From Roseibium sp. HPY-6 (lineage in GTDB: Bacteria; Pseudomonadota; Alphaproteobacteria; Rhizobiales; Stappiaceae): 64,000 nt of DNA. A program made the translations under genes and the position numbers. How positions within the stretch are numbered: the first letter of the stretch is position 1; each line of letters starts with the position of its first letter. Shown here piece by piece: positions 43,588 to 59,623 of this stretch. Below the pieces are notes generated by a model. It saw only the letters and a list, made by a program, of their open reading frames with translations, was not told the DNA's origin and made no database searches. The stretch covers positions 2,108,001-2,172,000 of the forward strand of contig NZ_JBEWCD010000001.1 in NCBI RefSeq assembly GCF_040530035.1. The letters run 5' to 3'.

Positions 43588-45288
43588 GTGCACGCGTCCT
43601 CAACCTCAGAAAAAACAACTCTTGTCGCGCTGGTTGTCGGTGCAACGGCCATTTGCGGTCTGCCGCTTCTTTTGCTTTTCAAGACGGGCCTTACCACCGA
43701 TAGCGGGATTGACCTCGGCCCGCTGATTGAAGCCGTCCAAAGCCGTTCCGTTCAGCGCGCGCTCTGGAATTCGATCGAAAGCAGCGTTTACTCTGCACTC
43801 GCCGCAACACTCCTTGGAACCGCGCTCGCATTGCTTGTCGGCCTGACCGACATCCGCGCAAAGGGCATTCTGGTTTTCCTGCTGCTCTTGCCGATGATGA
43901 TACCGCCCCACGTGACCGCGATCGCCTGGATCCAGGCACTGGGACCGGCAAGCCCCATCCTGCGCTGGCTCGGAATCGCACCGGAACTCGGCTCAACCCA
44001 TCCGCTTTATTCGCGCGAAGGGCTCGTTCTCCTTCTGACCTTGCAACACAGTCCGCTCGTCTTTCTGCTTGTGCGCGCAGCGCTCAGGTCGTTCCCGCGG
44101 GAGCTTTCGGATGCAGCCAGAATATCCGGCGCGGGCACCTGGACGCTTTTGCGCAGGATTACGCTGCCGCTTCTCGGTCCCTCGCTCCTGGCAGGCTTCG
44201 CGCTTGCCTTTGTAGCCGCGCTCGGCAATTTCGGAATCAATGCGCTGATCGGGATCCCTGCACGCTACACCACGTTGCCTGTTCTGGTATGGCGGCGCTT
44301 GGCAAGCTTCGGACCGGACATTCTACCGAATGTCGCCGTGATTTCCGTCATTCTCGCCGTCGTCGCTCTGGCTGCAATCCTCCTTCAAAGCCTTCTTCAG
44401 CGACGCATGCGCTCCAGCCTAATTGGCCTTCCTCAGGATCCGCTGGCGATTTCACTCGGGCGCAAGCGGCCCTTTGTTGAAGCGATAGTGTGGGTGTTTG
44501 TCGCCGGAGTTCTGCTTTTGCCGGCCGCATCCCTCCTGGCGACATCGCTTGTCAAAACCTATGGATTGCCGCTCTCGGGCGAGACGCTGACACTGGAGAA
44601 CTTCACCGAGGTTCTGTGGCGCCAAAGCGTAACCCTGAGGGCTTTTGCCAATTCGACTTTCATCGCTGGGTTCGCCGCCCTGCTCATCGCAGCCGCCAGC
44701 CTCTTTCTCGGATATTTTCTCGCGCACAGGCACAGGACTAACAGACGGATAGCTGCTTTTGTTTTCGGCCAGTCGGAGATCGCCTTCGCCGTGCCGGGAC
44801 TTGTCATGTCGATCGCATTCATTCTGGCCTTCATCCGGCCTCTGCCGGTTCTCAACGTCTCGCTCTACGGCACCTTGTGGATCATTCTGATCGCCTATGT
44901 CTCCGTATTCCTGGCTGTCGGTCTGAAGCCCGTCGCTGCTGCGTTTCTTCAGATGGACGGCGCGCTTGAAGACGCCGCACGCGTCTCCGGCGCCGGTTTC
45001 TTCCGCCGCATGCGCCGCATCTTTGCACCGCTTGCAGCACCGTCGGCTGCATCTGGCGCCATTCTCGTTTTCCTGACGGCCTATAACGAAGTCACGGTCT
45101 CGGCGCTGTTGTGGTCGACCGGCAACGAAACGATCGGGACAACGATTTTCAACTACGAGGACGGCGGCTACACAACCCTTGCCGCTGCGATGTCCGTCGT
45201 CGTCGTGGCCGCGACCATGGTCATCATGCTGGCCATGAACTTTCTTGCTCGGCATGTCCCGGCCGGAACAATCCCCTGGAGAAATTGA
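43588..45288 (+). CDS. Fe(III)/2-aminoethylphosphonate-type ABC permease, fused double domain
   Basis: A 566-residue inner-membrane permease containing two BPD_transp_1 domains. Each has its own EAA loop: DAARISGAGTWTLLRRITLPLLGP and DAARVSGAGFFRRMRRIFAPLAAP. About twelve helices are expected, so one polypeptide makes the whole channel, as in FbpB, ThiP and PhnT-like systems. The start is a GTG at 43588 with a weak ribosome-binding site; no better in-frame start is seen before the first helix. The matching ATPase gene lies convergently, 50 bases beyond the stop, on the other strand. Confidence 0.85.
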   Translation: MHASSTSEKTTLVALVVGATAICGLPLLLLFKTGLTTDSGIDLGPLIEAVQSRSVQRALWNSIESSVYSALAATLLGTALALLVGLTDIRAKGILVFLLLLPMMIPPHVTAIAWIQALGPASPILRWLGIAPELGSTHPLYSREGLVLLLTLQHSPLVFLLVRAALRSFPRELSDAARISGAGTWTLLRRITLPLLGPSLLAGFALAFVAALGNFGINALIGIPARYTTLPVLVWRRLASFGPDILPNVAVISVILAVVALAAILLQSLLQRRMRSSLIGLPQDPLAISLGRKRPFVEAIVWVFVAGVLLLPAASLLATSLVKTYGLPLSGETLTLENFTEVLWRQSVTLRAFANSTFIAGFAALLIAAASLFLGYFLAHRHRTNRRIAAFVFGQSEIAFAVPGLVMSIAFILAFIRPLPVLNVSLYGTLWIILIAYVSVFLAVGLKPVAAAFLQMDGALEDAARVSGAGFFRRMRRIFAPLAAPSAASGAILVFLTAYNEVTVSALLWSTGNETIGTTIFNYEDGGYTTLAAAMSVVVVAATMVIMLAMNFLARHVPAGTIPWRN

Positions 45289-45337: not shown

Positions 45338-46384
45338 CTAATGCGGCAGGACCCAGCCGCGCAGAATGTCCAACTGCAAGGTCTCGCCGGGATCAGCCTT
45401 TCGATAAAGCATCATCATCAAGGGTTCTTCAACACCGTCTGCTTTCACGAAGACATCCCAGGACCCGCCGCGATAGACTGTTCGAACGACAGTTCCAGCA
45501 AAGCCTCGCCGGCTTGTCGCCAGCACGAGATGTTCGGGACGCAACAGCAGCGTGGACGGCCCGCTTCGGGTCCCCACGGCACAGTCTGCTTCGAATGAAA
45601 ACGCACCGATTGTGACACGTGCCTCTTCCCCGTCGACCGACTCGACGCGTGCAGGTACGAGACTGCTTCGTCCGATGAAGCCGGCCACCCGGATTGAATT
45701 AGGTCGGCGGTAGATGAGGTCCGGTTCGTCGACTTGCAGGATTTCACCATCCCACATGACCGCCACCTTGTCGGCAAGTGCCATTGCTTCCCGCTGGTCA
45801 TGTGTGATGAACATCGAAGTCGCGCCGCTGGCCTTGTGAAAAGCTGCGAGCTCCTCTTCCATGACGCTGCGCAAATGCGGGTCGAGATTGGCGAGCGGCT
45901 CGTCCATCAGCACGGTTTCCGCTCCTTGCGCCAGGCACCTTGCCAGCGCAACCCTTTGCCGCTGACCGCCGGACAATTCTGCAGGTTTGCGCCGCGCGAA
46001 GGACGTCAACGCAACGGTTTCCAGGCATTCGGCAACCCGCGCATTGGTTTCAGAGCGGCTCTTACCGGTCGTTTCAAGGGGAAACGCAACATTTCCCGAA
46101 ACACTCATGTGCGGCCACAGGGCATAGGACTGAAAAACGACACCGGCACCCCGTTCTTCCGGAGCCATGTGAAAACCGTCACGTGCGACCAGTTGGGACC
46201 CAAGCGAGATTTCGCCTGTATCGATCGGTTCCAGACCGGCAATCGCGCGCAGCAATGTCGATTTCCCGCACCCCGATGGCCCCAGGACAACAAAGAACGA
46301 TCCTTCTTCGATCGCGAGCGAGACATTGTTCAGGGCTTTGTGCGTCCCGAAGGACTTAGAGACGCCAGAAACGGTGATGGACAT
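45338..46384 (-). CDS. ABC transporter ATP-binding protein (FbpC/PotA type)
   Basis: A 348-residue ATPase: Walker A GPSGCGKST, signature LSGGQRQRVALARC, Walker B VLMDEPLANLD, switch His in FITHDQREAM. A TOBE domain follows (LLLRPEHLVLATS). It is the expected partner of the double-domain permease but is encoded convergently on the opposite strand, so the importer subunits come from two transcripts. The upstream neighbour on its own strand is a phosphotransferase gene ending 58 bases before the start, suggesting shared transcription with that gene. Confidence 0.85.
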   Translation of the reverse strand: MSITVSGVSKSFGTHKALNNVSLAIEEGSFFVVLGPSGCGKSTLLRAIAGLEPIDTGEISLGSQLVARDGFHMAPEERGAGVVFQSYALWPHMSVSGNVAFPLETTGKSRSETNARVAECLETVALTSFARRKPAELSGGQRQRVALARCLAQGAETVLMDEPLANLDPHLRSVMEEELAAFHKASGATSMFITHDQREAMALADKVAVMWDGEILQVDEPDLIYRRPNSIRVAGFIGRSSLVPARVESVDGEEARVTIGAFSFEADCAVGTRSGPSTLLLRPEHLVLATSRRGFAGTVVRTVYRGGSWDVFVKADGVEEPLMMMLYRKADPGETLQLDILRGWVLPH

Positions 46385-46442: not shown

Positions 46443-47378
46443 CTATTTGGTCCGAAGCCTGAGCAACAGATCCACTTCTTCTTCCAGGGCACGTCCATAT
46501 GCACGCGCTGCCGGAGCGTTGGTGGTTCCGAGTGTCTCGTGCCGATAGAGGCAATAAGCGGCGAGCCGCCAGTGATAGGCGCTGCGTTCTTCCAGAAATC
46601 GTTCGACAATCTGCTGGTTAGGGTAGTGCTTCAAAAACATGTCTTCGGCATAGGTAACCAGCGGATGAAGCCCGTAGAGCTTCAAGAGCCCGGGGGAAAC
46701 GAAACCGGCAATATCCTCCACCGGATCGCCGTAACCGGCGAACTGCCAGTCGATCAATCGCGCTCCGTCTGCTGTCGACTGAATGGTCCCAAGGCAAAAG
46801 CTTCGATGGACAAGAGTTCGTTCGACGGTGCGATTCTCGACGGCATCGTCATTCGGCCGCAGCCGTTTCAGGTTAACCGCCTTCCGGCTCTCCGGAATGG
46901 CGGCCAGCATGGCGTCGCCCCGCTCGAGCACTTCATGAAAGCCTGCCGGAACCGTCTGGTGGCCAGGAACCGGTTCCTTCAGATTTGCGATCCGGCCGAT
47001 TAGATCTGCTGCTTCACCGACGTCGATTTCATCGGTCTTCGGCGGACCGTATCCGTAAACAAGCAAGGGGGTGCCGACCGGACTTTGGGAATAAATTTCC
47101 AGTTCCGGCGCAAGATCATATTGCGCAAGAAACGTTAGCGCCTCGGCTTCCTGGTCCGGCAATGTCGGATAAAGCGGATTGTCTTCCGCGCCGGGAAAGA
47201 ACTCCTTTATCACATAGATACGATCCGGCGTATCGAGGCGCCAGAAGCGGCTCGTGTAATTGACGGGCAGCGGCCGAAGGCGCGCGGCGCTCCAGTCCCT
47301 TGCCGGCAGGAGATCCCTCAGGAACGTCAAAAGGTCTGAATCGGACAGCCGTTCGCGCACGCCACTATGGTCCATCAT
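46443..47378 (-). CDS. Phosphotransferase (APH/choline-kinase fold) with degenerate catalytic loop
   Basis: A 311-residue APH-fold protein from the ATG at 47378 (a long N-terminal extension in frame is not family-like, and the start is uncertain). The ATP lysine is present in YVIKEF (Lys58) and the Mg-binding Asp in LIDWQFAG (Asp210), with GDPVEDIAGF after it. The catalytic Brenner loop HxDxxxxN reads HRSFCLGTIQ (His191), with Ser193 in place of Asp and Thr198 in place of Asn, so ordinary kinase activity is doubtful. It is divergent from the methyltransferase operon and upstream of the ABC ATPase gene. A choline-type substrate would fit the context but is not shown. Confidence 0.75.
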   Translation of the reverse strand: MMDHSGVRERLSDSDLLTFLRDLLPARDWSAARLRPLPVNYTSRFWRLDTPDRIYVIKEFFPGAEDNPLYPTLPDQEAEALTFLAQYDLAPELEIYSQSPVGTPLLVYGYGPPKTDEIDVGEAADLIGRIANLKEPVPGHQTVPAGFHEVLERGDAMLAAIPESRKAVNLKRLRPNDDAVENRTVERTLVHRSFCLGTIQSTADGARLIDWQFAGYGDPVEDIAGFVSPGLLKLYGLHPLVTYAEDMFLKHYPNQQIVERFLEERSAYHWRLAAYCLYRHETLGTTNAPAARAYGRALEEEVDLLLRLRTK

Positions 47379-47620
47379 TATTTCAATAAATCTCTGATCG
47401 CTGCGCAGATCCAATTCGTCAAGTCGAACTTTCAAAGTCCCCCGTCCATGTCCCGCATTGCCTTTGGGACATGTCGGAGTTGAAGCACAGACCGTCGCTC
47501 TCAGACTGCCCGGAAAAATGAGCCTCTCAGCTACAGTTATCGCACTGGGCGCTCTCGTTGCGCAGCAGCTGTTGGTGGCCTGCCTGCACGCCACCTTCTC
47601 AACAACCATGGCGGTTCAGG

Positions 47621-49201
47621 ATGACAGAGGGAATTGGCGAAGCTTCCGTGAATGAAACGGCACCCGCAAGGCGCGGACGACGCCGCAGAGGCGGCGGAGA
47701 AAAAGCCGGTCCGGACCTTTTTCCGCAAAAGCCTTTCAAACAGCCCCGTCACATTTTCAAGCCGATCGAGGCGATCTCGGCCGACGAACTGGAAGCCATC
47801 CATGATGCCTCAATGCGCGTCCTGGAAGAAATCGGCATGGACTTCCTGCACGAGGAAGCCAAGGCGATGCTCAAGGCGGCGGGCGCCGATGTGAAACCGG
47901 GTGAAGATCGTGTGCGCATGGACCGCGCCATGGTCGAAGAGCTGATCGCCAAGGCACCATCCGAATTCATGATGCGGGCCCGCAACCGGAACCATGACCT
48001 CAGGATCGGCGGAGATGCGATCGTCTTTTCCTGCGTCGCCAGCACGCCGAATGTGGTTGACCGCGATGGCGGGCGCCGTCCGGGCAACCGTGAAGATTTT
48101 CAGAAACTCCTGAAACTCGGACAGTTCTTCAACATCATTCATGCCCCGCTCGGCTATCCTGTCGAACCGGTCGACCTGCACGCATCGATCCGCCACCTGG
48201 ATTGCATCGCAGACGCCATCCGCCTGACCGACAAGGCGCTGCATCTTTATTCGCTCGGCAAGGAACGCAATCACGACGGCATCGAGCTTGCGCGCATTGC
48301 CAATGGGTTGACGCATGAAGAGCTTGTCGACACGCCTTGTACGCTGACCGTGATCAACACATCTTCGCCGCTGCGCCTCGACACACCGATGCTGCAAGGC
48401 TTGATCGAAATGGCGAAGGCCGGACAGGTTTCGGTCGTCACCCCGTTCACACTTGCAGGTGCGATGGCCCCGGTCACGATGGCCGGTGCCCTGACCCTGC
48501 AAAATGCCGAAGCACTTGCCGGGATTGCCTTCGCGCAGCTCGTCAGGCCGGGCGCGCCTGTCGTCTATGGCGGGTTCACGTCGAATGTGGACATGAAATC
48601 CGGCGCACCTGCCTTCGGCACGCCTGAATACATGAAAGCTGCTCTGGTCAGTGGCCAGCTGGCAAGACGATACAACTTGCCCTTCAGATCCTCCGGTGTC
48701 TGCGCAGCCAACACCGTGGATTACCAGGCTGCCCTTGAAACGACCTTGTCCGAATGGGGCGCGATCAACGGCGGCGGCAACCTGATCAAACATGCTGCCG
48801 GCTGGCTGGAAGGCGGGTTGAGTGCGGGCTTTGAGAAATTCATCGCCGACATTGACCTCCTTCAGAAAATCGCCGAGTACCTGACACCGCTCGACGTATC
48901 CGAAGCATCGCTCGCCATTGACGCAATCCGTGATGTCGGACCGGCCGGACATTTCTTTGGCACGGAGCACACGCAGGCCCGCTACAAGGAGGCGTTCTAT
49001 CCGCCGATCGTCTCCGACTGGCGCAACTACGAGACCTGGGCGGAGGCCGGAAGCCCGATCGCCTATGACAAGGCCAACATGCTCTACAAGAAAGCCCTGG
49101 AGGCCTATGAGCAGCCTGCGCTCGACCCGGCCATCGACGAAGAAATCACGGCCTTTGTTGACAGACGCAAAGCCGAAGGCGGCGTCCCGACCGACTTCTG
49201 A
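47621..49201 (+). CDS. MttB/COG5598-superfamily methyltransferase (non-pyrrolysine)
   Basis: A 526-residue protein of the trimethylamine methyltransferase superfamily. The N-tail is Arg/Gly-rich; the barrel starts DELEAIHDASMRVLEEIGMDF and includes HAPLGYPVEPVDLHASIRHLD, CTLTVINTSSPLRLDTPMLQGL and VCAANTVDYQAALETTLSEWGA. No in-frame amber codon interrupts it, so it belongs to the non-pyrrolysine group (which includes glycine betaine methyltransferase MtgB). No corrinoid protein or reactivase is encoded in the window. A GTG at 47648 is an alternative start. It leads an operon with a DMGDH-like gene 51 bases later and a DddP-type gene after that. Confidence 0.85.
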   Translation: MTEGIGEASVNETAPARRGRRRRGGGEKAGPDLFPQKPFKQPRHIFKPIEAISADELEAIHDASMRVLEEIGMDFLHEEAKAMLKAAGADVKPGEDRVRMDRAMVEELIAKAPSEFMMRARNRNHDLRIGGDAIVFSCVASTPNVVDRDGGRRPGNREDFQKLLKLGQFFNIIHAPLGYPVEPVDLHASIRHLDCIADAIRLTDKALHLYSLGKERNHDGIELARIANGLTHEELVDTPCTLTVINTSSPLRLDTPMLQGLIEMAKAGQVSVVTPFTLAGAMAPVTMAGALTLQNAEALAGIAFAQLVRPGAPVVYGGFTSNVDMKSGAPAFGTPEYMKAALVSGQLARRYNLPFRSSGVCAANTVDYQAALETTLSEWGAINGGGNLIKHAAGWLEGGLSAGFEKFIADIDLLQKIAEYLTPLDVSEASLAIDAIRDVGPAGHFFGTEHTQARYKEAFYPPIVSDWRNYETWAEAGSPIAYDKANMLYKKALEAYEQPALDPAIDEEITAFVDRRKAEGGVPTDF

Positions 49202-49252
49202 TCACCGCATTAATTCCTTGCCAATTCAAAGCAGGTACTCTGGAGCGTACGC

Positions 49253-51688
49253 ATGAAAACTCACACTCAGGTCGTTGTCATTGGTGGTGGCGTTGTCGGC
49301 TGCAGTGTTCTTTATCACCTGACCAAACTCGGCTGGAAGGATGTCGTTCTCGTCGAGCGGGACGAGCTGACTTCCGGCTCTTCATGGCACGCTGCCGGTG
49401 GCTTTCACACCTTGAACGGCGACCCGAACGTTGCCCAGCTGCAGAGTTACACCGTCGACCTCTACAAAGAACTTGAGGAAATTTCCGGCCAGTCCTGCAG
49501 CCTTCACCTGACGGGCGGTGTCATGCTCGCCGACACACCCGAACGCATGGATTTTCTGCGTCTTGCACAGGCAAAGGGCCGTTATCTCGGCATGGAACTG
49601 GAACTGATATCCGTTGCCGAAGCCAAGACCATGTTCCCTATGCTCGATGAAAAGCACTTCATCGGCGCGCTCTGGGATCCGATTGAAGGGCACCTGGATC
49701 CTTCCGGCACCACACATGCCTATGCAAAGGCGGCACGCATCAATGGTGCCACGGTCTACCGCCACACCAAGGTCGAGGAACTGGTTCAGACACCTGACGG
49801 GACCTGGGACGTGATCACCAACAAGGGCACGATCCGGGCAGAGCATGTCGTCAACGCCGGCGGGCTCTGGGCCAGGGAATGCGGCCGCATGGTCGGGCTT
49901 GAACTTCCCATCCTTGCCATGGAGCACATGTATCTGCTCACGGACGAAATGCCGGAGGTGGTCGCCCACAACGAGGCAACGGGCAAGGAACTGATCGGCA
50001 TTCTCGACTTCGGCGGTGAGATCTATACGCGCCAGGAAGGCAAGGGCATGTTGCTCGGGACCTACGAGCAGAATTGCCGCCCATGGAGCCCTCGCGAGAC
50101 CCCTTGGGACTTCGGTCATGAGCTTCTGGCGCCCGATCTGGACCGGATTGCCCCGGAACTGGAAGTCGGCTTTGAACATTTCCCGGCGCTTCAGACAGCG
50201 GGTATCAAGCAGATCATCAACGGACCCTTCACGTTCGCGCCGGACGGCAACCCGCTGGTCGGCCCGGTCAGAGGTCTCCAGAACTACTGGGTTGCCTGCG
50301 GCGTCATGGCCGGGTTCAGCCAGGGCGGCGGCGTCGGCCTGACGCTTGCCAACTGGATGATCAACGGGGATCCGGGCTATGACATCTGGGGGATGGATGT
50401 TGCCCGATACGGTGACTGGGCCACGCTCTCTTATACCAACGCAAAGGTGCAGGAAAACTATCGCCGCAGGTTCCGGATACGGTTCCCGAATGAGGAACTT
50501 CCGGCCGGCAGGCCGCATCAGACCACACCATTATACGACCGGATGCTCGCCAAGGGCGCTGTCATGGGCGACAGCTGGGGCCTGGAAACACCGCTCTGGT
50601 TTGCGTCCGAAGGCGTTGAGGCGAAGGACATTGTCTCGTTCCGCCGGTCCAACGATTTCGATCCCATCGGCGCTGAATGCCGGGCCGTGCGCGAGAGTGT
50701 CGGCGTTACGGAAATCGCGAACTTTGCGAAATACGAGATAAGTGGCCCCGGTGCGGAAGACTATCTGTCGTTGCTTATGACGAACACGATGCCGAGGACA
50801 GGTCGCATCGTCCTGACCCCGATGCTGAATGAAAATGGCAAGCTGATCGGTGACTTCACCATCGCACGCGTGTCTGACGAAAAACTCTACATGTTCGGCT
50901 CGTCGCAGGCCGAAATCTATCACATGCGCTGGTTCGAAAAGCACCTGCCGGAAGATGGGTCCGTGAGCCTGAAGGCGATCAATCTCGGCTGGGTCGGGCT
51001 TTCAATCGCCGGGCCTAATTCGCGCAAAGTCCTGCAGAAAATCACGGGCGACGACGTCTCGAACGAAGCTTTCCGGTTCATGGATTTCCGCGAGATGGAC
51101 GTTGCCAATGCGCCGTGCAAAGTCAATCGCATTACCTATACCGGCGACCTTGGTTACGAGATCTGGATGACGCCGGAATACGAACGCCAGGTCTATGACG
51201 CCATCCTGGAGGCCGGCGCTGAGTTCGGCATCCGCGACTTCGGCATGCGCGCGCTTCTGTCGATGCGACTTGAGAAAAACTTCGGCACCTGGTTCCGGGA
51301 GTTCCGGCCGATTTACGGACCTTACGAAGCCGATCTCGGGCGCTTCGTAAAGCTGTCGAAAAACCGCTTCATCGGTCAGGAAGCCGCCCGAAAGGAATTC
51401 GAGGACGGGCCGAAGCGCCTGCGCGTCAGTTTCGAGGTCGAGGCGTCCGACGCCGACGTCATGGGCGATGAACCGGTCTGGCATGACGGCAAGGTCATCG
51501 GCTGGATCACGTCGGGTGGCTATGCCCATTGGGTGCGAAAGTCGCTTGCGCAGGGATACATCCCTGCCGACCTCGCCAGCACGACCGACAAGGGCGCGTT
51601 TGAAGTCGAAATTCTGGGTGAAATGTGCAAGGCGACCATCCTGCCCGATCCACCCTTCGACCCGAAAGCAGAGCGCATGCGCATGTAA
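49253..51688 (+). CDS. FAD-dependent oxidoreductase with GcvT domain (dimethylglycine dehydrogenase-like)
   Basis: An 811-residue two-part enzyme. Residues 1 to about 400 form a DAO-type FAD domain with VVVIGGGVVGCSVLYHL and SSWHAAGG, where His46 is the usual covalent flavin ligand of dimethylglycine dehydrogenases. From about residue 430 follows an aminomethyltransferase (GcvT) domain with GVTEIANFAKYEISGPGAE, TYTGDLGYEIW-like and RLEKNFGTWFREF segments. Such enzymes oxidise N-methyl groups of dimethylglycine or sarcosine and hand the C1 unit to tetrahydrofolate. It sits between the MttB-like and DddP-type genes (gaps of 51 and 46 bases), so it probably processes demethylated onium compounds. 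Confidence 0.9.
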   Translation: MKTHTQVVVIGGGVVGCSVLYHLTKLGWKDVVLVERDELTSGSSWHAAGGFHTLNGDPNVAQLQSYTVDLYKELEEISGQSCSLHLTGGVMLADTPERMDFLRLAQAKGRYLGMELELISVAEAKTMFPMLDEKHFIGALWDPIEGHLDPSGTTHAYAKAARINGATVYRHTKVEELVQTPDGTWDVITNKGTIRAEHVVNAGGLWARECGRMVGLELPILAMEHMYLLTDEMPEVVAHNEATGKELIGILDFGGEIYTRQEGKGMLLGTYEQNCRPWSPRETPWDFGHELLAPDLDRIAPELEVGFEHFPALQTAGIKQIINGPFTFAPDGNPLVGPVRGLQNYWVACGVMAGFSQGGGVGLTLANWMINGDPGYDIWGMDVARYGDWATLSYTNAKVQENYRRRFRIRFPNEELPAGRPHQTTPLYDRMLAKGAVMGDSWGLETPLWFASEGVEAKDIVSFRRSNDFDPIGAECRAVRESVGVTEIANFAKYEISGPGAEDYLSLLMTNTMPRTGRIVLTPMLNENGKLIGDFTIARVSDEKLYMFGSSQAEIYHMRWFEKHLPEDGSVSLKAINLGWVGLSIAGPNSRKVLQKITGDDVSNEAFRFMDFREMDVANAPCKVNRITYTGDLGYEIWMTPEYERQVYDAILEAGAEFGIRDFGMRALLSMRLEKNFGTWFREFRPIYGPYEADLGRFVKLSKNRFIGQEAARKEFEDGPKRLRVSFEVEASDADVMGDEPVWHDGKVIGWITSGGYAHWVRKSLAQGYIPADLASTTDKGAFEVEILGEMCKATILPDPPFDPKAERMRM

Positions 51689-51734
51689 CACCCCTTGAGG
51701 GCCCAGGCCAACGCGGGAGGAGGCGTAGCCATAT

Positions 51735-53111
51735 ATGAATACGGAACATTTTGGCCGCCACAGGCGGAAAATACTGCCGGAAAGTGCTCTGATCCATCCG
51801 GGAGATCAGGCAGGTTACGAGGCGCTTTCAGCCTATGCGTTCGAAAAGGCGACGCTCCTGAACCGTCACATGCTTGGTTACGGCGCTTTCGTGGAAAACG
51901 AGTGGGCGGCGCTCGGACTGGACGCGCCTGATCTCGACGTTGTTCGCAAATACCGGCTTGACCGCATTCGCCAGCAGCTCGAAAAGTTTGACCTGAGCGC
52001 CGCGATCCTATGCGATCCACTGAACGTTCGTTATGCGACCGACGCAACCAATATGCAAATATGGTCAGCGCACAACGCTGTCCGCTATACGTTTGTTGCG
52101 CTGGAAGGCCCGGTCGTTGCGTTCGACTTTCACAATTGCGAGCACTTGTCAGCGCATAATTCCCAAGTCGATGAAATGCGGCACGGGATCCCGTGGTTCT
52201 ACTTCGAATCCGGCCCCCGCTCACAGGAACTTGCGCTGAAATGGGCTGACGAACTGGCGGACCTGGTCAAGACCTATGGTGGCGGCAACCATCGGATTGC
52301 CCTCGACAAGGCGCGCCGCGAAGGCGTTGCTGCTCTGGAAACGCACGGTTTGTTATTTCATGATGGTGAAGAAGTCATGGAACTCGCGCGCGCCATCAAG
52401 TGCCCGGACGAAATCAAGGCAATGCGCAGGTCGATCGCTTCCTGTGAAGCGGCCATGCAGGAAATGGAAGATGCGCTCGTACCGGGCATGACGGAGTGGG
52501 AGCTATGGTCGCTTCTTCACGCCGGCAACATCAGACGGGGTGGTGAATGGGTCGAGACCCAGTTGCTCGCCTCCGGGCCGCGCACAAATCCATGGTTCCA
52601 GGAGGCATCGGCTCGTGTGATTGAAAACGGCGACCTCGTCGCATTCGATACCGATCTGGTCGGCCCCTATGGCATGTGCTGTGACATCTCGCGGACCTGG
52701 CTCTGCGGGAACGATGCACCGACGGGCGAACAGCAGTCGCTTTACCGGATGGCGTTCGACCAGATCGAAGCGAACATCGAAATGCTTGCCCCTGGCCGGA
52801 CCTTCCGTGAACTCTCTCATGAGGCCAGCAGTCTGCCCGAGGACTATCTCGCAAACCGCTACTCCGTACTCTTTCACGGCGTGGGCCTGTGCGACGAATA
52901 CCCTGCCGTTCCCTATCCGTCAGATTGGGAAAGCGGTGGCTACGATGGTGTCCTGGAGCCAGGAATGGTGGTCTGCGTGGAAAGCTACGTTGGCCGGCAC
53001 GGCGGCCATGAAGGGGTAAAATTGGAAGAACAACTGCTGATCACCGGGCAAGGGTATGAGCGTCTCAGCACATACCCCTACGACGAACGCTTGCTGGGCC
53101 GCCAGATGTGA
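51735..53111 (+). CDS. dddP: DMSP lyase DddP (M24 peptidase fold)
   Basis: A 458-residue pita-bread-fold (M24) protein. Six metal ligands recalled for the structurally known DddP (Asp295, Asp297, Asp307, His371, Glu406, Glu421) appear as Asp305, Asp307, Asp317, His381, Glu416 and Glu431, and the catalytic Tyr366/Asp377 as Tyr376/Asp387, all with the same +10 offset. Flanking segments FDTDLVGPYGMCCDISRTW and FHGVGLCDEYP and the N-terminal DPLNVRYATDATNMQIW also fit. DddP cleaves dimethylsulfoniopropionate to DMS and acrylate. It is the third gene of an operon with MttB-like and DMGDH-like genes. A non-DMSP paralogue remains possible. Confidence 0.85.
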   Translation: MNTEHFGRHRRKILPESALIHPGDQAGYEALSAYAFEKATLLNRHMLGYGAFVENEWAALGLDAPDLDVVRKYRLDRIRQQLEKFDLSAAILCDPLNVRYATDATNMQIWSAHNAVRYTFVALEGPVVAFDFHNCEHLSAHNSQVDEMRHGIPWFYFESGPRSQELALKWADELADLVKTYGGGNHRIALDKARREGVAALETHGLLFHDGEEVMELARAIKCPDEIKAMRRSIASCEAAMQEMEDALVPGMTEWELWSLLHAGNIRRGGEWVETQLLASGPRTNPWFQEASARVIENGDLVAFDTDLVGPYGMCCDISRTWLCGNDAPTGEQQSLYRMAFDQIEANIEMLAPGRTFRELSHEASSLPEDYLANRYSVLFHGVGLCDEYPAVPYPSDWESGGYDGVLEPGMVVCVESYVGRHGGHEGVKLEEQLLITGQGYERLSTYPYDERLLGRQM

Positions 53112-54085: not shown

Positions 54086-55123
54086 TCAGATGCGACGCAG
54101 CCAGTCGGCGATCCCCTGGCCGATGACGTGTGGATGATCCTCCTGGAGAAAATGCGATCCGGCCCCGACGAAACGCGCTTCGATATTGGCCACGTTCGCG
54201 GTCAGGTAGTCCGCGACGGGCTTGGGCATCAGCGCACCCGGCTCCGCATAGAACATCAGCTTGGGAACCTGGCTCGACAGCAGCCATTCACCGTTCAGCC
54301 TGACCTCTTCGACCACGTCGGCCGGCTTGCCCTCGATAGGCACTTCGCGCGGCCACGCGAGAACCGGCTTGCGGCTGTCGGGCGTCGGAAATGGTCTGCG
54401 GTAGTGATCCATCTCCGCATCGGACATGGCGCGCACGACACCCATTTGCGGCAGCACGAATTCCACGAAGAAATTCTCGTTGAGCACCATGTCGGCGCCC
54501 TTGTCGCTGTGCATCAGACGGAAGAAATCGGCAAGGGGACCGGGCATGTCGTCAAACGATGCGACCGGGAGCACAGGCGGGACAATGGCTTCCAGGAAGA
54601 CCAGCCCTGACACGCGGTCCGGGTTCTGGCGCGCATAGCGCATGCCGAGCGCAGAGCCCCAGTCGTGGACCACCAGGATCGCATCGCTCAGGTCAAGCTG
54701 GTCGAGAAAAGTGTCCAGATAGCGCGCATGATCGGCAAACCGGTAGTCACCGTCAGGTTTGCCGCTATCGCCCATGCCGATCAGATCGGGCGCAATGGCG
54801 CGGTGGCTCTCCGACACATGCGGTATGATATTGCGCCACAGATAGGACGAAGTCGGGTTGCCATGCAAAAACACAACGGGCTGCCCGTCTCCCTCATCAA
54901 CATAGGCGAGGGAGGAATCCAGCACGGACATTTCCTTCTTCTTGAAGGGAAACTCCGCGCTGATCTGGATCCCATAAGGAGCGGACGGATCCGAACCAAG
55001 CGGTTTGGCCCCTTCCTGTGCTATTGCAGTGCCCGCTAGCGGTAGAGCAAGCGCTGCACCTCCTGTGGCCGCCCCAGTCAGCAGCCTTCGCCGGGTTGTT
55101 TCAAAGCTCAACTTGCCACTCAT
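54086..55123 (-). CDS. Haloalkane dehalogenase-like alpha/beta hydrolase with Tat signal
   Basis: A 345-residue hydrolase. The N-terminus holds a twin-arginine signal (TTRRRLLTGAATGG, Arg11-13, then a hydrophobic stretch ending AIAQ). The mature part has the haloalkane dehalogenase subfamily II layout: FLHGNPTSSYLW with Asn89, VVHDWGSALGM with nucleophile Asp154 and halide-binding Trp155, FLEAI with Glu178, and GAGSHFLQEDHP with His324. All five catalytic positions are present. It would cleave carbon-halogen bonds hydrolytically in the periplasm, an unusual location, since most characterised members are cytoplasmic. The ATG at 55123 follows GGAGGAC. It is divergent from a LysR gene. Confidence 0.88.
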   Translation of the reverse strand: MSGKLSFETTRRRLLTGAATGGAALALPLAGTAIAQEGAKPLGSDPSAPYGIQISAEFPFKKKEMSVLDSSLAYVDEGDGQPVVFLHGNPTSSYLWRNIIPHVSESHRAIAPDLIGMGDSGKPDGDYRFADHARYLDTFLDQLDLSDAILVVHDWGSALGMRYARQNPDRVSGLVFLEAIVPPVLPVASFDDMPGPLADFFRLMHSDKGADMVLNENFFVEFVLPQMGVVRAMSDAEMDHYRRPFPTPDSRKPVLAWPREVPIEGKPADVVEEVRLNGEWLLSSQVPKLMFYAEPGALMPKPVADYLTANVANIEARFVGAGSHFLQEDHPHVIGQGIADWLRRI

Positions 55124-55273
55124 GAAGTCCTCCACGTTCTTTCAAAGCCGAACGCGCGCCAATCGCGCGATAGTCTGAAATCTGGTGGATTGATTTTCGA
55201 AATGAATATGATCAAATTGACCAACGTGGATAAAAAACGATCCACAAGGAAGAACCGATCGTGAAGGAAATCC

Positions 55274-56167: not shown

Positions 56168-56995
56168 CTAGGACAGATCCGGGTAGCTTTTTTCGCCGGC
56201 GCTCCGCTCCATCTTCAGGATCGGCTCATAGCCAGCCTCCGAAAGTGCGGAAAAGCCGTCGATCAGAAGGCGCTCGCGGCACGCTGATGTTGCCGGGTCA
56301 GAAAGAACCGATTGGACGGTCCGGGAAATGATATCCGCCTCCGCTGGCGACCACGCGGAACTCGTGATGAACGGCAGCCCCGGCGCTTTGATCGTGTGTC
56401 CGATGGATCGCAGCTTTCCCGTCATGTCAGGCAACTCCCTGCGCGCAAGCGCCCAGCAGACGGCATCGATACTCGCGATATCGGCCTGACCGTCTGCCAC
56501 CGACTTCATCGACTGCAAGTGGCTCCCGCTTTGCGCCACGCTTGAAAAAAACGCGGCACCTTCGGCGAGTTGTGCAACTTCATGGCGGAATGCGTTCATG
56601 CCTGACTGGCTGTCGCCCGCATTGAAAACGGCACGTTGTCCACGCAGGTCTGCAAGCGTTTCATGGGCACTGTCCCGTGAGACGATCAGATGCGAACAGT
56701 AATGCGGCCCGGAGCAACCATCCGCCATGTAATGCGGAGTTCCCAGTACACGGACCTTGCCGCTAAGCAGGTGGGTCAACGGGTAGCCACAGGTTTGACT
56801 GAGCAGCAGATCCGGGTTTTCCCACTGATCGTGCAAGCCCATATCGGCAGGCCACTCGGCAATACTGGATGGATCAAGACCCAGCGCTTCGAGAAGCGCC
56901 GACTGCAGTGCGTTCTCAAGTTCCCGGGTCTCGGGTCGGAGTTCGGGCCAGTCGTACATCGGCAGCCTTACGCGGTAGACGCGACGACCGGTCAA
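56168..56995 (-). CDS. PhnD-like phosphate/phosphonate-binding protein, no signal peptide
   Basis: A 275-residue PhnD/type-2 binding-protein fold with LPMYDWPELRPETRELENAL, LLLSQTCGYPLTHLL, HYCSHLIVSRDSAHETLADLRGQRAVFN and SGMNAFRHEV. There is no signal peptide, so it would stay in the cytoplasm and act as sensor or ligand carrier rather than as a transporter subunit. The TTG at 56995 overlaps the desaturase stop (TTGA), and an ATG at 56959 is the alternative. No permease or ATPase partner is nearby. Confidence 0.75.
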   Translation of the reverse strand: MTGRRVYRVRLPMYDWPELRPETRELENALQSALLEALGLDPSSIAEWPADMGLHDQWENPDLLLSQTCGYPLTHLLSGKVRVLGTPHYMADGCSGPHYCSHLIVSRDSAHETLADLRGQRAVFNAGDSQSGMNAFRHEVAQLAEGAAFFSSVAQSGSHLQSMKSVADGQADIASIDAVCWALARRELPDMTGKLRSIGHTIKAPGLPFITSSAWSPAEADIISRTVQSVLSDPATSACRERLLIDGFSALSEAGYEPILKMERSAGEKSYPDLS

Positions 56996-57909
56996 GAGAA
57001 CTGGTCCTCGCGCGCGCGTCGCCTGATCGGATGCGCAACCGGCTCCTTCACCTTGAAAAGATAGTTTCTGGCAAGATGCATATAGCTTCTAAAAACATAT
57101 CCGGCATTCCTGCGCTGCCAGTCATCCTTTGCTGCCTCGTACATTGCCGGCAGCTCGTACCATGCCGCCCTTGGATGAGCGTGGTGCACAACATGCAGGT
57201 TGTTGTTTAAAAACAGCAGCGAGAAAATCGGGCAGAACTCCACGATGATCGACCGGGCTTCCGCGCTTTCATGGGCACGGTGTTCGGCATATGTGCGCAA
57301 CATCAATAGGCTCATGGCCAGATAAGAGACGAAGAGAACATACAGCCACAAGGGCATGCCGCCCACCAGAGTGATAAAAAGGATAACAGGTAAGATACCG
57401 GCGAAATGATGCATCCAGGCGCGCAAAACGACCCTGTCCCCGGCCAGGATCATCCTGATTTCCGAACCAATGAAGCCAATCATCGATACGAGCGGGCCAA
57501 TCAGCAATCTGCCGAAGAGCGTGTTGTTGAGCGTCAGAACAAACTGCAGAAATTTGGGCAGCTTCTGCCAATCCGCCCAGGCAAGATAGAATGTTTCCGG
57601 ATCGTCGTAAGGATCCGTCAGCCGGTCGTTGTTGTGATGGCGCAGATGCAGCGACTTGAAGCGACGGTATGGAATAAACAAACCGAGCGAGCAATAAACA
57701 AGCGCCTCGTTGACGCCAGGATGCCGCGTCGGATGCCCGTGCAGAACTTCATGCTGGAGAGACGATTGTAACGTCACGACAATAACGGCAAGCGGGCAAA
57801 CCACCCATCCACCAAGCCAGGTATAATTCCCGACCAATAGCATCCAGGTTGCCGCCGCAGCCAAAATCAAGGCGAGCGTCGGCCATTCGCGAAAACCAAT
57901 GCGCGTCAC
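56992..57909 (-). CDS. Membrane fatty acid desaturase
   Basis: A 305-residue di-iron membrane desaturase with four to six helices. The three histidine boxes are HEVLHGH (His53, His57, His59), HLRHH (His88, His91, His92) and HVVHH (His239, His242, His243), the pattern of the acyl-lipid desaturase/hydroxylase superfamily. It overlaps the PhnD-like gene by four bases, which couples a phosphonate/phosphate-binding protein with lipid modification. Modification of phosphorus-free membrane lipids under phosphate limitation would make sense of the pair, but that is inference. Confidence 0.88.
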   Translation of the reverse strand: MTRIGFREWPTLALILAAAATWMLLVGNYTWLGGWVVCPLAVIVVTLQSSLQHEVLHGHPTRHPGVNEALVYCSLGLFIPYRRFKSLHLRHHNNDRLTDPYDDPETFYLAWADWQKLPKFLQFVLTLNNTLFGRLLIGPLVSMIGFIGSEIRMILAGDRVVLRAWMHHFAGILPVILFITLVGGMPLWLYVLFVSYLAMSLLMLRTYAEHRAHESAEARSIIVEFCPIFSLLFLNNNLHVVHHAHPRAAWYELPAMYEAAKDDWQRRNAGYVFRSYMHLARNYLFKVKEPVAHPIRRRAREDQFS

Positions 57910-58288: not shown

Positions 58289-59623
58289 ATGACCACCGCT
58301 CCCTCGCTTCAGACAGGCTCCCCGGCTGGCTATGACGCGATCATCATCGGTGCCGGCGTCATCGGCTCTGCGGTTGCCTACAATCTGGCAAAGAGCGGGA
58401 TGAAAACGTTGAGTGTCGATGCGCTGCCGGCAGCCGGCTACGGCTCAACGTCTAGCTCGGCAGCCGTGATCCGCACCTACTATTCAACGCTTGATGGGTC
58501 TGCGATGGCATTCGAGGGTTATCACGACTGGAAATACTGGCCGCAAACCTTGCAGACAGACGACAATAACGGCCTCGCACAGTTTATAGAGACTGGCACG
58601 CTCGTCATGAAAACCGAGGCCAATAACCGGCTGGAAAGAGTGCTGACGCACGCAGACGCGCTTGAAATTCCCTATGAGCACTGGACACGCGAGCAGATCG
58701 TCCAGCGCATGCCCGGGTACAATCTTGAACGGTTCTATCCGCCAAAGTCCATGGAGGACGACGCATTCGGCATGCCGACCGGCGGTCAAGTGGAAGGCGC
58801 TATCTTCTTTCCAAAGGGGGGCTACGTCGACGACCCTCAGATTGCCGCAAGGAACCTCAAGGATGCCGCGGTTCGCCATGGCGCAACCTTTCTATTCAAC
58901 ACGAAAGTCGTAAAAATCACGGTCGAGGACAACCGGGTCACCGGTATCGTCTGCGAGGACGGCAGCGTGCACTCCGCAAGGGTCGTGATAAATGTCGGCG
59001 GTCCTCATTCCGGAAAGGTCAATGCGCTGCTGGATGGCGATGCGGGGATCAAGATCCGCCACCGTCCGCTGCGTCAGGAAGTCGTTCAGATCAAGCCGCC
59101 GGGTTCTCTCGGTTATTCGCGCGAAGGCCTTCTCGTGTCCGACAGCGATATTGCCTGCTACGTCAAACCGGGCAGTGGCGGACAATTGATGATTGGCAGT
59201 GAGAACCCGCCCTGCGACGACCATCTGGAAGAAGACCCCGACACGTTCCACCGCGACCTGACCGACAGAGCACTTGCGTACGCGTACCGCTATTCCCAGC
59301 GCTTGCCGGAGCTGGGCGTCTCACAACACCCCGTCGGCGTTGCCGACCTCTACGATGCAACGGACGACTGGCTACCGATCTACGATCGCAGCGATGTCGA
59401 CGGTTATTATCTTGCCATCGGCACAAGCGGCAACCAGTTCAAGAACGCTCCTGTGGCCGGGCGGCTGATGCGCCAGCTGATCGAATATTGCGAGAGCGGC
59501 AGGGACCATGACAACGATCCGCTGCAGTTCAAACTGAACCACATTGATCACACGCTCAATACCGCGACTTTTTCCAGAAAGCGGGATCTGACACAGGAAA
59601 GTTCCTTCTCCGTCCTTGGCTAG
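58289..59623 (+). CDS. FAD-dependent amine/amino-acid oxidoreductase (sarcosine oxidase beta-like)
   Basis: A 444-residue DAO-family flavoprotein. The dinucleotide fold is AIIIGAGVIGSAVAYNLAKSG near residues 17-37, and GSTSSSAAVIRTYYS follows. The C-terminal FAD stretch GYYLAIGTSGNQFKNAPVAGRLM closes the fold. It has no Cys or His flavin attachment motif in the usual place that I can see. The family oxidises secondary or tertiary amines and N-methyl amino acids. The stop codon TAG lies inside the CTAG that begins the repeat element at 59620. The role next to a helicase gene is unclear. Confidence 0.82.
   Translation: MTTAPSLQTGSPAGYDAIIIGAGVIGSAVAYNLAKSGMKTLSVDALPAAGYGSTSSSAAVIRTYYSTLDGSAMAFEGYHDWKYWPQTLQTDDNNGLAQFIETGTLVMKTEANNRLERVLTHADALEIPYEHWTREQIVQRMPGYNLERFYPPKSMEDDAFGMPTGGQVEGAIFFPKGGYVDDPQIAARNLKDAAVRHGATFLFNTKVVKITVEDNRVTGIVCEDGSVHSARVVINVGGPHSGKVNALLDGDAGIKIRHRPLRQEVVQIKPPGSLGYSREGLLVSDSDIACYVKPGSGGQLMIGSENPPCDDHLEEDPDTFHRDLTDRALAYAYRYSQRLPELGVSQHPVGVADLYDATDDWLPIYDRSDVDGYYLAIGTSGNQFKNAPVAGRLMRQLIEYCESGRDHDNDPLQFKLNHIDHTLNTATFSRKRDLTQESSFSVLG

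Follow-up and report, generated by a model that had tools for sequence, protein, structure and literature searches.

Within a 64,000-nucleotide stretch of the Roseibium sp. HPY-6 genome (contig NZ_JBEWCD010000001.1, positions 2,108,001 to 2,172,000; hereafter, the window), three consecutive genes encode an MttB-like methyltransferase, a DMGDH-like FAD/GcvT dehydrogenase, and an M24-family protein resembling the dimethylsulfoniopropionate (DMSP) lyase DddP. We consider it probable that these genes form a catabolic cluster, linked to cobalamin and folate, that demethylates a methylated onium osmolyte (a quaternary ammonium compound being the likeliest), with the M24 protein providing an optional cleaving branch. 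The source genome spans 7.03 Mb, and the closest named relatives of the M24 protein are from Roseibium/Labrenzia. The three genes are as follows:

47621..49201, + strand: MttB-like (PF06253) non-pyrrolysine methyltransferase, 526 amino acids, from the open reading frame (ORF) and domain scan; an alternative longer TTG start is possible at 47558
49253..51688, + strand: DMGDH-like FAD/GcvT dehydrogenase, 811 amino acids, with an SWHAA motif that aligns to human DMGDH
51735..53111, + strand: M24 DddP-like enzyme, 458 amino acids, from a sister clade of DddP

The initial annotation described these genes as an operon, and the ORFs confirm its coordinates, the shared strand, and intergenic gaps of 51 bases (MttB–DMGDH) and 46 bases (DMGDH–M24). 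By eye, a Shine-Dalgarno-like GGAG lies 5′ of 49253 and GGAGGAGG lies 5′ of 51735. A scan of the region returned 6 terminator-like sites against a shuffle mean of 7.1, with none on the + strand inside either gap. Promoter and fold scans of both gaps found nothing, an Rfam scan of the window gave zero matches, and a sigma-70 scan, which is weakly informative, gave zero sites. A single transcript is likely.

Conserved gene order in related genomes had been set beforehand as a check on the operon proposal, and the order proved to be conserved. A pattern scan for M24 proteins (TNPWFQE and VGLCDEYP) retrieved 584 relatives; the best 80 of these 584 were taken as loci, and their neighbors were read by tblastn. 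Fifty-three fetched loci, 31 of them from Mesorhizobium, fall into the same M24 clade as the window protein (hereafter, the module clade). The order MttB–DMGDH–M24 on one strand was found in 43 of the 53 (31/31 Mesorhizobium and 12/22 others), extending beyond Mesorhizobium to Roseibium, Afifellaceae, Ahrensia, and Aminobacter loci; both marine and soil bacteria are represented. Kiloniella carries the same genes in a different order, and several of the 10 loci without the conserved order sit on short contigs. Among the 43 order-keeping loci, the MttB–DMGDH gap is at most 120 bases in 24, the DMGDH–M24 gap in 23, and both in 15; in six of seven Roseibium-type loci, the gaps are 51–62 and 45–54 bases, with 62 and 312 in the seventh. 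Flanking sequence of 9 kb or more in each direction was available for 45 module-clade loci; among these, MttB (≥45%) and DMGDH (≥50%) were present in 43, and the PhnD-like and desaturase-like (FADS) genes listed below in 44 and 40, respectively. By comparison, none of 17 DddP-clade loci had both MttB and DMGDH neighbors at 50% identity (MttB at ≥45% in 4/17, DMGDH at ≥50% in 0/17), with only 10 of the 17 offering 9 kb on both sides. A chance neighborhood of three catabolic genes without a common pathway would accommodate independent gain or loss of M24, but the one-strand order in 43 of 53 fetched loci and the short gaps in several genera render it very improbable.

The distribution of the genes across the order distinguishes a core from an accessory. 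We searched 297 genomes of the order for M24 (to E 1e-120), DMGDH (to 1e-250), and MttB (to 1e-150), which were found in 36, 72, and 75 genomes, respectively. Neighbors were counted for 73 of 100 listed DMGDH matches (≥61%), 120 MttB matches, and 44 M24 matches. MttB occurs within 10 kb of 48 of the 73 DMGDH copies, M24 of 18, and both of 14. M24 copies of at least 56% have MttB within 10 kb in 14/18 cases, compared with 2/26 for those below 56%. Two same-genus genomes (G237 and G286) keep MttB, DMGDH, PhnD, FADS, and a second FAD amine oxidase-like gene (DAO2), with M24 absent at E to 1e-120; five same-family genomes (G041, G081, G146, G173, and G195) likewise keep the MttB–DMGDH pair with no M24 match at that limit. 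A search for M24 remnants in eight clusters without M24, including those of G237 and G286, found none that was convincing. In two further same-genus genomes (G254 and G271), MttB, DMGDH, and M24 were all without a match at these E limits. Because same-genus and same-family genomes keep the pair without M24, MttB–DMGDH is the core and M24 an optional accessory. The initial annotation had envisaged one pathway that both demethylates and cleaves; that combination may still apply where M24 is present, although the cleaving gene is optional and missing from G237 and G286. At three loci from these same-family genomes (L113–L115), the MttB–DMGDH pair adjoins a dipeptide-type ATP-binding cassette (ABC) transporter.

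The first gene matches PF06253 (MTTB) at 658.7 bits (cut-off 25), has no in-frame TAG (amber) codon, and reaches 298 bits against TIGR02369, the pyrrolysine trimethylamine methyltransferase MttB, below the 525-bit cut-off. By these sequence features it belongs to the non-pyrrolysine MttB superfamily, as had been annotated. The source genome carries six PF06253 genes, one of which (L017) is 42% identical to the window MttB and resembles MtgB. The L017 protein scores 772 bits against the S. meliloti structure 4yyc and 443 bits against the glycine betaine enzyme 9yce, compared with 358 and 313 bits for the window protein. Because the L017 copy scores far higher against both, the window MttB is probably not the principal MtgB. 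Of the six MttB genes, five have an FAD/GcvT gene next to them or no more than about 1 kb away. These partners are diverse (24–50% to the window's), and that of L017 lacks the WH motif searched; the window, L017, and L019 partners and one of the two L021 genes were assigned from domain scans, and the L020 gene and the other L021 gene solely from BLAST comparison with the window protein. At L021 (G000:C2:716000-735900), two different DMGDH-like genes flank MttB on one strand, as if for three successive demethylations. At L018 (G000:C2:566000-585900), MttB precedes a mandelate racemase-like gene and is oriented divergently to ABC transporter genes, an arrangement reminiscent of proline betaine loci.

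The second gene has the domain series DAO, FAO_M, GCV_T, and GCV_T_C, the architecture of dimethylglycine dehydrogenase. Its best solved match is human DMGDH (610 bits), with the bacterial dimethylglycine oxidase 1pj5 at 322 bits. The earlier description of a DMGDH-like FAD/tetrahydrofolate enzyme thus holds. The protein resembles the human enzyme (5l46, 4p9s) in its full-length match, domain order, and FAD WH motif, but differs in having MttB as its genomic partner, and a role in dimethylglycine oxidation is putative. The DMGDH fold oxidizes N-methyl groups.

An outlet for the methyl groups is encoded on a different contig. There, MtgC-like, RACo, pterin-binding MtgD-like, and FTHFS genes are clustered (L022), constituting one stand-alone hub for six MttB genes, along with a DUF1638-like ORF named by resemblance. 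Leaving aside a match within a 1256-residue frame, the L022 corrinoid protein is the single TIGR02370 match, at 173 bits and under the cut-off of 215.3. A 301-amino-acid hub protein considered as MetF was dropped after zero Pfam matches at 1e-8. The components sought as companions of an MttB-superfamily enzyme, namely a corrinoid protein, a pterin methyltransferase, and a reductive activase, are all present in the genome, unlinked to the window, and the L022 proteins would be the partners of the window MttB. In Ruegeria pomeroyi, MtgC and MtgD are reported as required for glycine betaine demethylation, and up to seven PF06253 genes per such genome suggest further substrates (PMC12478193). From the available text of that study, the R. 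pomeroyi system (MtgBCD/MtgE and a split methionine synthase) has in common with the source genome a PF06253 methyltransferase, single MtgC and MtgD proteins, RamA/RACo and DUF1638-like reactivation genes, and several MttB paralogues of unassigned substrate. The source genome fits that picture. R. pomeroyi MtgBCD is assigned to glycine betaine (PMC12478193), whereas the window MttB is another paralogue, which is associated with a DMGDH-like gene and, over part of its range, with a DddP-like M24; the available text of that study makes no mention of such an arrangement. Read together with that report, the MtgC/MtgD/RACo/FTHFS hub supports the initial suggestion that one-carbon units are fed to folate.

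The third gene had been called DddP, which overstates the match. Its best solved matches are indeed two DddP structures, 4rzy (399 bits) and 4b28 (385 bits). Against the NCBIfam DddP model (NF043017), it scores 485 bits, below the 600-bit cut-off, compared with 657, 629, 618, 602, and 594 bits for five DddP-clade proteins (L083, L095, L092, L099, and L104, respectively). DddP coordinates its metals through D295, D297, D307, H371, E406, and E421, with Tyr366 and Asp377 over the metals (PMC4108388). All six ligands are kept in the window M24, as are the equivalents of Tyr366, Asp377, and Trp95 (nine DddP residues checked in total). Trp95 is important in DddP. The genome's two other M24 paralogues and one S. 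meliloti M24 have Gly at position 377 and lack Trp95. Because the VGLCDEYP pattern of the relatives scan selects for D377, its conservation among L025–L104 is biased, and the contrast with the genome's own paralogues is unbiased. In a 48-row M24 tree, from which Terr_L007b was left out as a different M24, the DddP clade comprises 16 rows (support 100/100), one of them a Loktanella protein that closely matches 4rzy (876 bits), and the window M24 falls in a separate 18-row clade (support 95/90). Forcing five Roseibium rows into the DddP clade lowers the log likelihood by 31.9 units, with an approximately unbiased test p-value (p-AU) of 0.007; this group was defined once a first tree was available. 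Nine clade-specific positions separate the two. Window-type M24 proteins are 43% identical to a roseobacter-type DddP and 55–56% to others, which come from Hoeflea (L083) and Oceanisphaera and belong to the DddP clade. Because the residues are kept, the NF043017 cut-off is missed, and the clade is separate, we regard the protein by sequence as DddP-like in its active site yet outside DddP as delimited, a sister clade. Like DddP (RdDddP, PMC4108388; 4rzy, 4b28), it has the M24 fold, the metal ligands, and both Tyr366 and Asp377, but it differs in clade, NCBIfam score, the nine positions, and its usual neighbors, MttB and DMGDH. As M24 includes creatinase, a creatinase role was considered; no molecule so named occurs among 55 matched PDB sequences.

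Several DddP-like loci have neighborhoods of their own. In two gammaproteobacterial metagenome-assembled genomes (MAGs; L086 and L089), a DddP-clade M24 lies between a Cys/Met pyridoxal phosphate-dependent enzyme and a divergent MttB, which hints at sulfonium chemistry. In Oceanimonas and Pseudomonas MPC6, the surroundings of DddP-like M24 genes include Rieske oxygenase and FAD oxidase genes, with BCCT genes too in the latter; the Loktanella DddP gene is also near Rieske genes (L095, L139, and L141 for these loci). Two DddP proteins are known from the genus Oceanimonas; the genome behind L095 gave a single match.

Whether DMSP, alongside betaines, is the common substrate, with M24 as a true DMSP lyase and the MttB- and DMGDH-like enzymes as demethylases, bears directly on the cluster's function. 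The retained metal ligands and the D377, Y366, and W95 equivalents, together with the 55–56% identity to the Hoeflea and Oceanisphaera proteins, argue for this possibility. DMSP is, moreover, presumably met by the organism, because its genome encodes DmdA over the cut-off (640 bits; contig C3) and, at 124 bits against a cut-off of 27, a DMSP lyase of the DddL type (PF16867; contig C1). These dedicated genes also count against DMSP as the operon's substrate, as do the NF043017 score, the placement outside the DddP clade with its p-AU for a group defined post hoc, and the oxidation of N-methyl groups by the DMGDH fold. In Labrenzia aggregata, whose strain may or may not have this M24 type, a dddL mutant reportedly lost about 97% of its dimethylsulfoxonium propionate (DMSOP) lyase activity (PMC10686828). 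A Labrenzia DddP homologue is reported to be 35% identical to O. doudoroffii DddP2 (PMC6309047). Three DMSP/acrylate partner genes from one Pseudomonas plasmid, MMSDH (DddC-like), Fe-ADH (DddB-like), and BCCT, had zero matches in the window and, at ≥50%, in the 53 module-clade loci (AcuN, AcuK, AcuI, and PrpE were not searched); weaker matches (29–30%) occur in L036 and L039. At ≥50%, MMSDH lies beside 3 of 17 DddP-clade loci (Hoeflea and two MAGs, 56–57%), and Fe-ADH and BCCT beside none. This absence is weak evidence because most DddP-clade loci also lack the partners. Considering the genome's own DmdA and PF16867 genes, the dddL mutant report, and the lack of MMSDH near module-clade loci, DMSP is not the leading substrate candidate from sequence. 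We therefore consider a shared DMSP substrate, as initially annotated, unlikely.

A plain glycine betaine route is possible, albeit doubtful. Under such a scheme, the window MttB would be a second glycine betaine methyltransferase, gene 2 would encode the actual dimethylglycine dehydrogenase, and DAO2 would act as a sarcosine oxidase; M24 would be a hydrolase or peptidase that uses the same promoter but is otherwise unrelated. Human DMGDH as the best solved match of gene 2 is consistent with this, as are the bmt/MtgE genes (≥50%) in 38 of 53 module-clade loci and, by eye, MtgC- and DUF1638-like ORFs in some (L035 and L126). Conversely, the L017 MttB is far closer to 4yyc and 9yce, and the DddP base D377 is kept in M24 but absent from both paralogues.

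We thus return to the proposed demethylation of a quaternary ammonium osmolyte with an optional cleaving branch. MttB would remove the first methyl group from the quaternary nitrogen and transfer it to a corrinoid protein made elsewhere. By analogy with R. pomeroyi (PMC12478193), the MtgC/MtgD/RACo hub would pass this methyl to tetrahydrofolate. The DMGDH-like enzyme would take the second methyl oxidatively, giving methylene-tetrahydrofolate, as is typical of the family, and DAO2, in Roseibium or where present, perhaps takes the third. Where present, M24 may serve a side branch that splits the same or a related compound, using a metal-bound carboxylate and an Asp base as in DddP. As a guess, β-alanine betaine, the nitrogen analogue of DMSP, would suit all of the enzymes. 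A bolder version strikes us as quite improbable: the M24 clade would be a C–N lyase whose substrate is a DMSP analogue with a quaternary nitrogen, for example β-alanine betaine, and whose products are trimethylamine and acrylate; the same compound would also be stripped of its methyl groups, down to the free amine, by MttB, the DMGDH-like enzyme, and (in Roseibium) DAO2, placing both routes for one N-osmolyte in the operon; and DMSP-cleaving DddP would have arisen from this N-onium family.

Further genes surround the operon:

43588..45288, + strand: fused ABC permease, closest to PhnU2 though below cut-off, in the Roseibium version of the cluster
45338..46384, − strand: ABC ATPase with a TOBE domain, Roseibium version of the cluster
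46443..47609, − strand: APH-type phosphotransferase, transcribed away from the operon and conserved in the seven Roseibium-type loci
54086..55135, − strand: haloalkane dehalogenase-like (396 bits; NCBIfam cut-off 241), between the operon and the PhnD-like gene
56168..56995, − strand: PhnD-like binding protein (PF12974), with no obvious N-terminal signal peptide by eye
56992..57909, − strand: FADS, membrane desaturase/hydroxylase-like (PF00487), with boxes HEVLH, HLRHH, and HVVHH
58289..59623, + strand: DAO2, second FAD amine oxidase-like (PF01266)

The best NCBIfam matches of DAO2 are N-methyltryptophan oxidase and monomeric sarcosine oxidase, both below cut-off. The haloalkane dehalogenase-like gene is present in four of seven Roseibium-type loci, and an XRE regulator (≥45%) in 32 of 53 module-clade loci. 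At L039, DAO2 lies between DMGDH and MttB; at L103, outside the module clade, it directly follows DMGDH.

Several observations weigh against the proposed pathway. M24 need not belong to it, because M24 is missing in relatives that keep the MttB–DMGDH pair, and 25 of the 73 DMGDH copies have no MttB match within 10 kb, some of which may be at contig ends. Locus counts overstate independence because 31 of 53 are from Mesorhizobium. The split from DddP loci is not clean: MttB at 49–53% occurs in L086, L087, L089, and L096, and distant DMGDH-like genes (34 and 38%) in L086 and L091. The corrinoid hub lies on a different contig from the operon, and DAO2 (≥40%) is limited to 8 of the 53 module-clade loci, of which six are Roseibium-type and the others are Kiloniella L039 and L044. 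PhnD-like/desaturase-like pairs also occur on Pantoea, Klebsiella, and Erwinia plasmid stretches (L105, L106, and L110), adjoining FMN monooxygenase and ABC transporter genes; because no MttB is annotated there, the pair may do something else. Finally, we infer the substrates of all three proteins.

We found no description of this MttB–DMGDH–M24 cluster in the open-licence literature; a Shimia genome paper, in its available text, lists MttB and DddP and draws no link between them. In Tara Oceans data, DddP reportedly makes up about 65% of the ddd genes of bacteria (PMC10686828), and one survey accepted DddP homologues in reference genomes from 40% identity and 70% coverage, with 68% for PCR products (PMC6309047). 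The MttB-linked sister clade, at 43% or 55–56% to DddPs, would pass the 40% threshold. If its members act on nitrogen osmolytes, part of the counted dimethyl sulfide potential would be something else. The operon also offers a testable candidate for one PF06253 paralogue whose substrate is left open in the available text of PMC12478193.

Two minor observations concern the spread of the cluster. Actinobacterial and Chloroflexi MAG contigs (L034 and L037) carry M24 nested in the alphaproteobacterial module clade, reflecting either horizontal transfer or binning error. A Terrarubrum flagellatum plasmid (L007, L109) encodes sarcosine oxidase, DMGDH-like, bmt, MttB, M24, PhnD-like, desaturase, B12-binding, and DUF1638 genes in about 25 kb across its origin.

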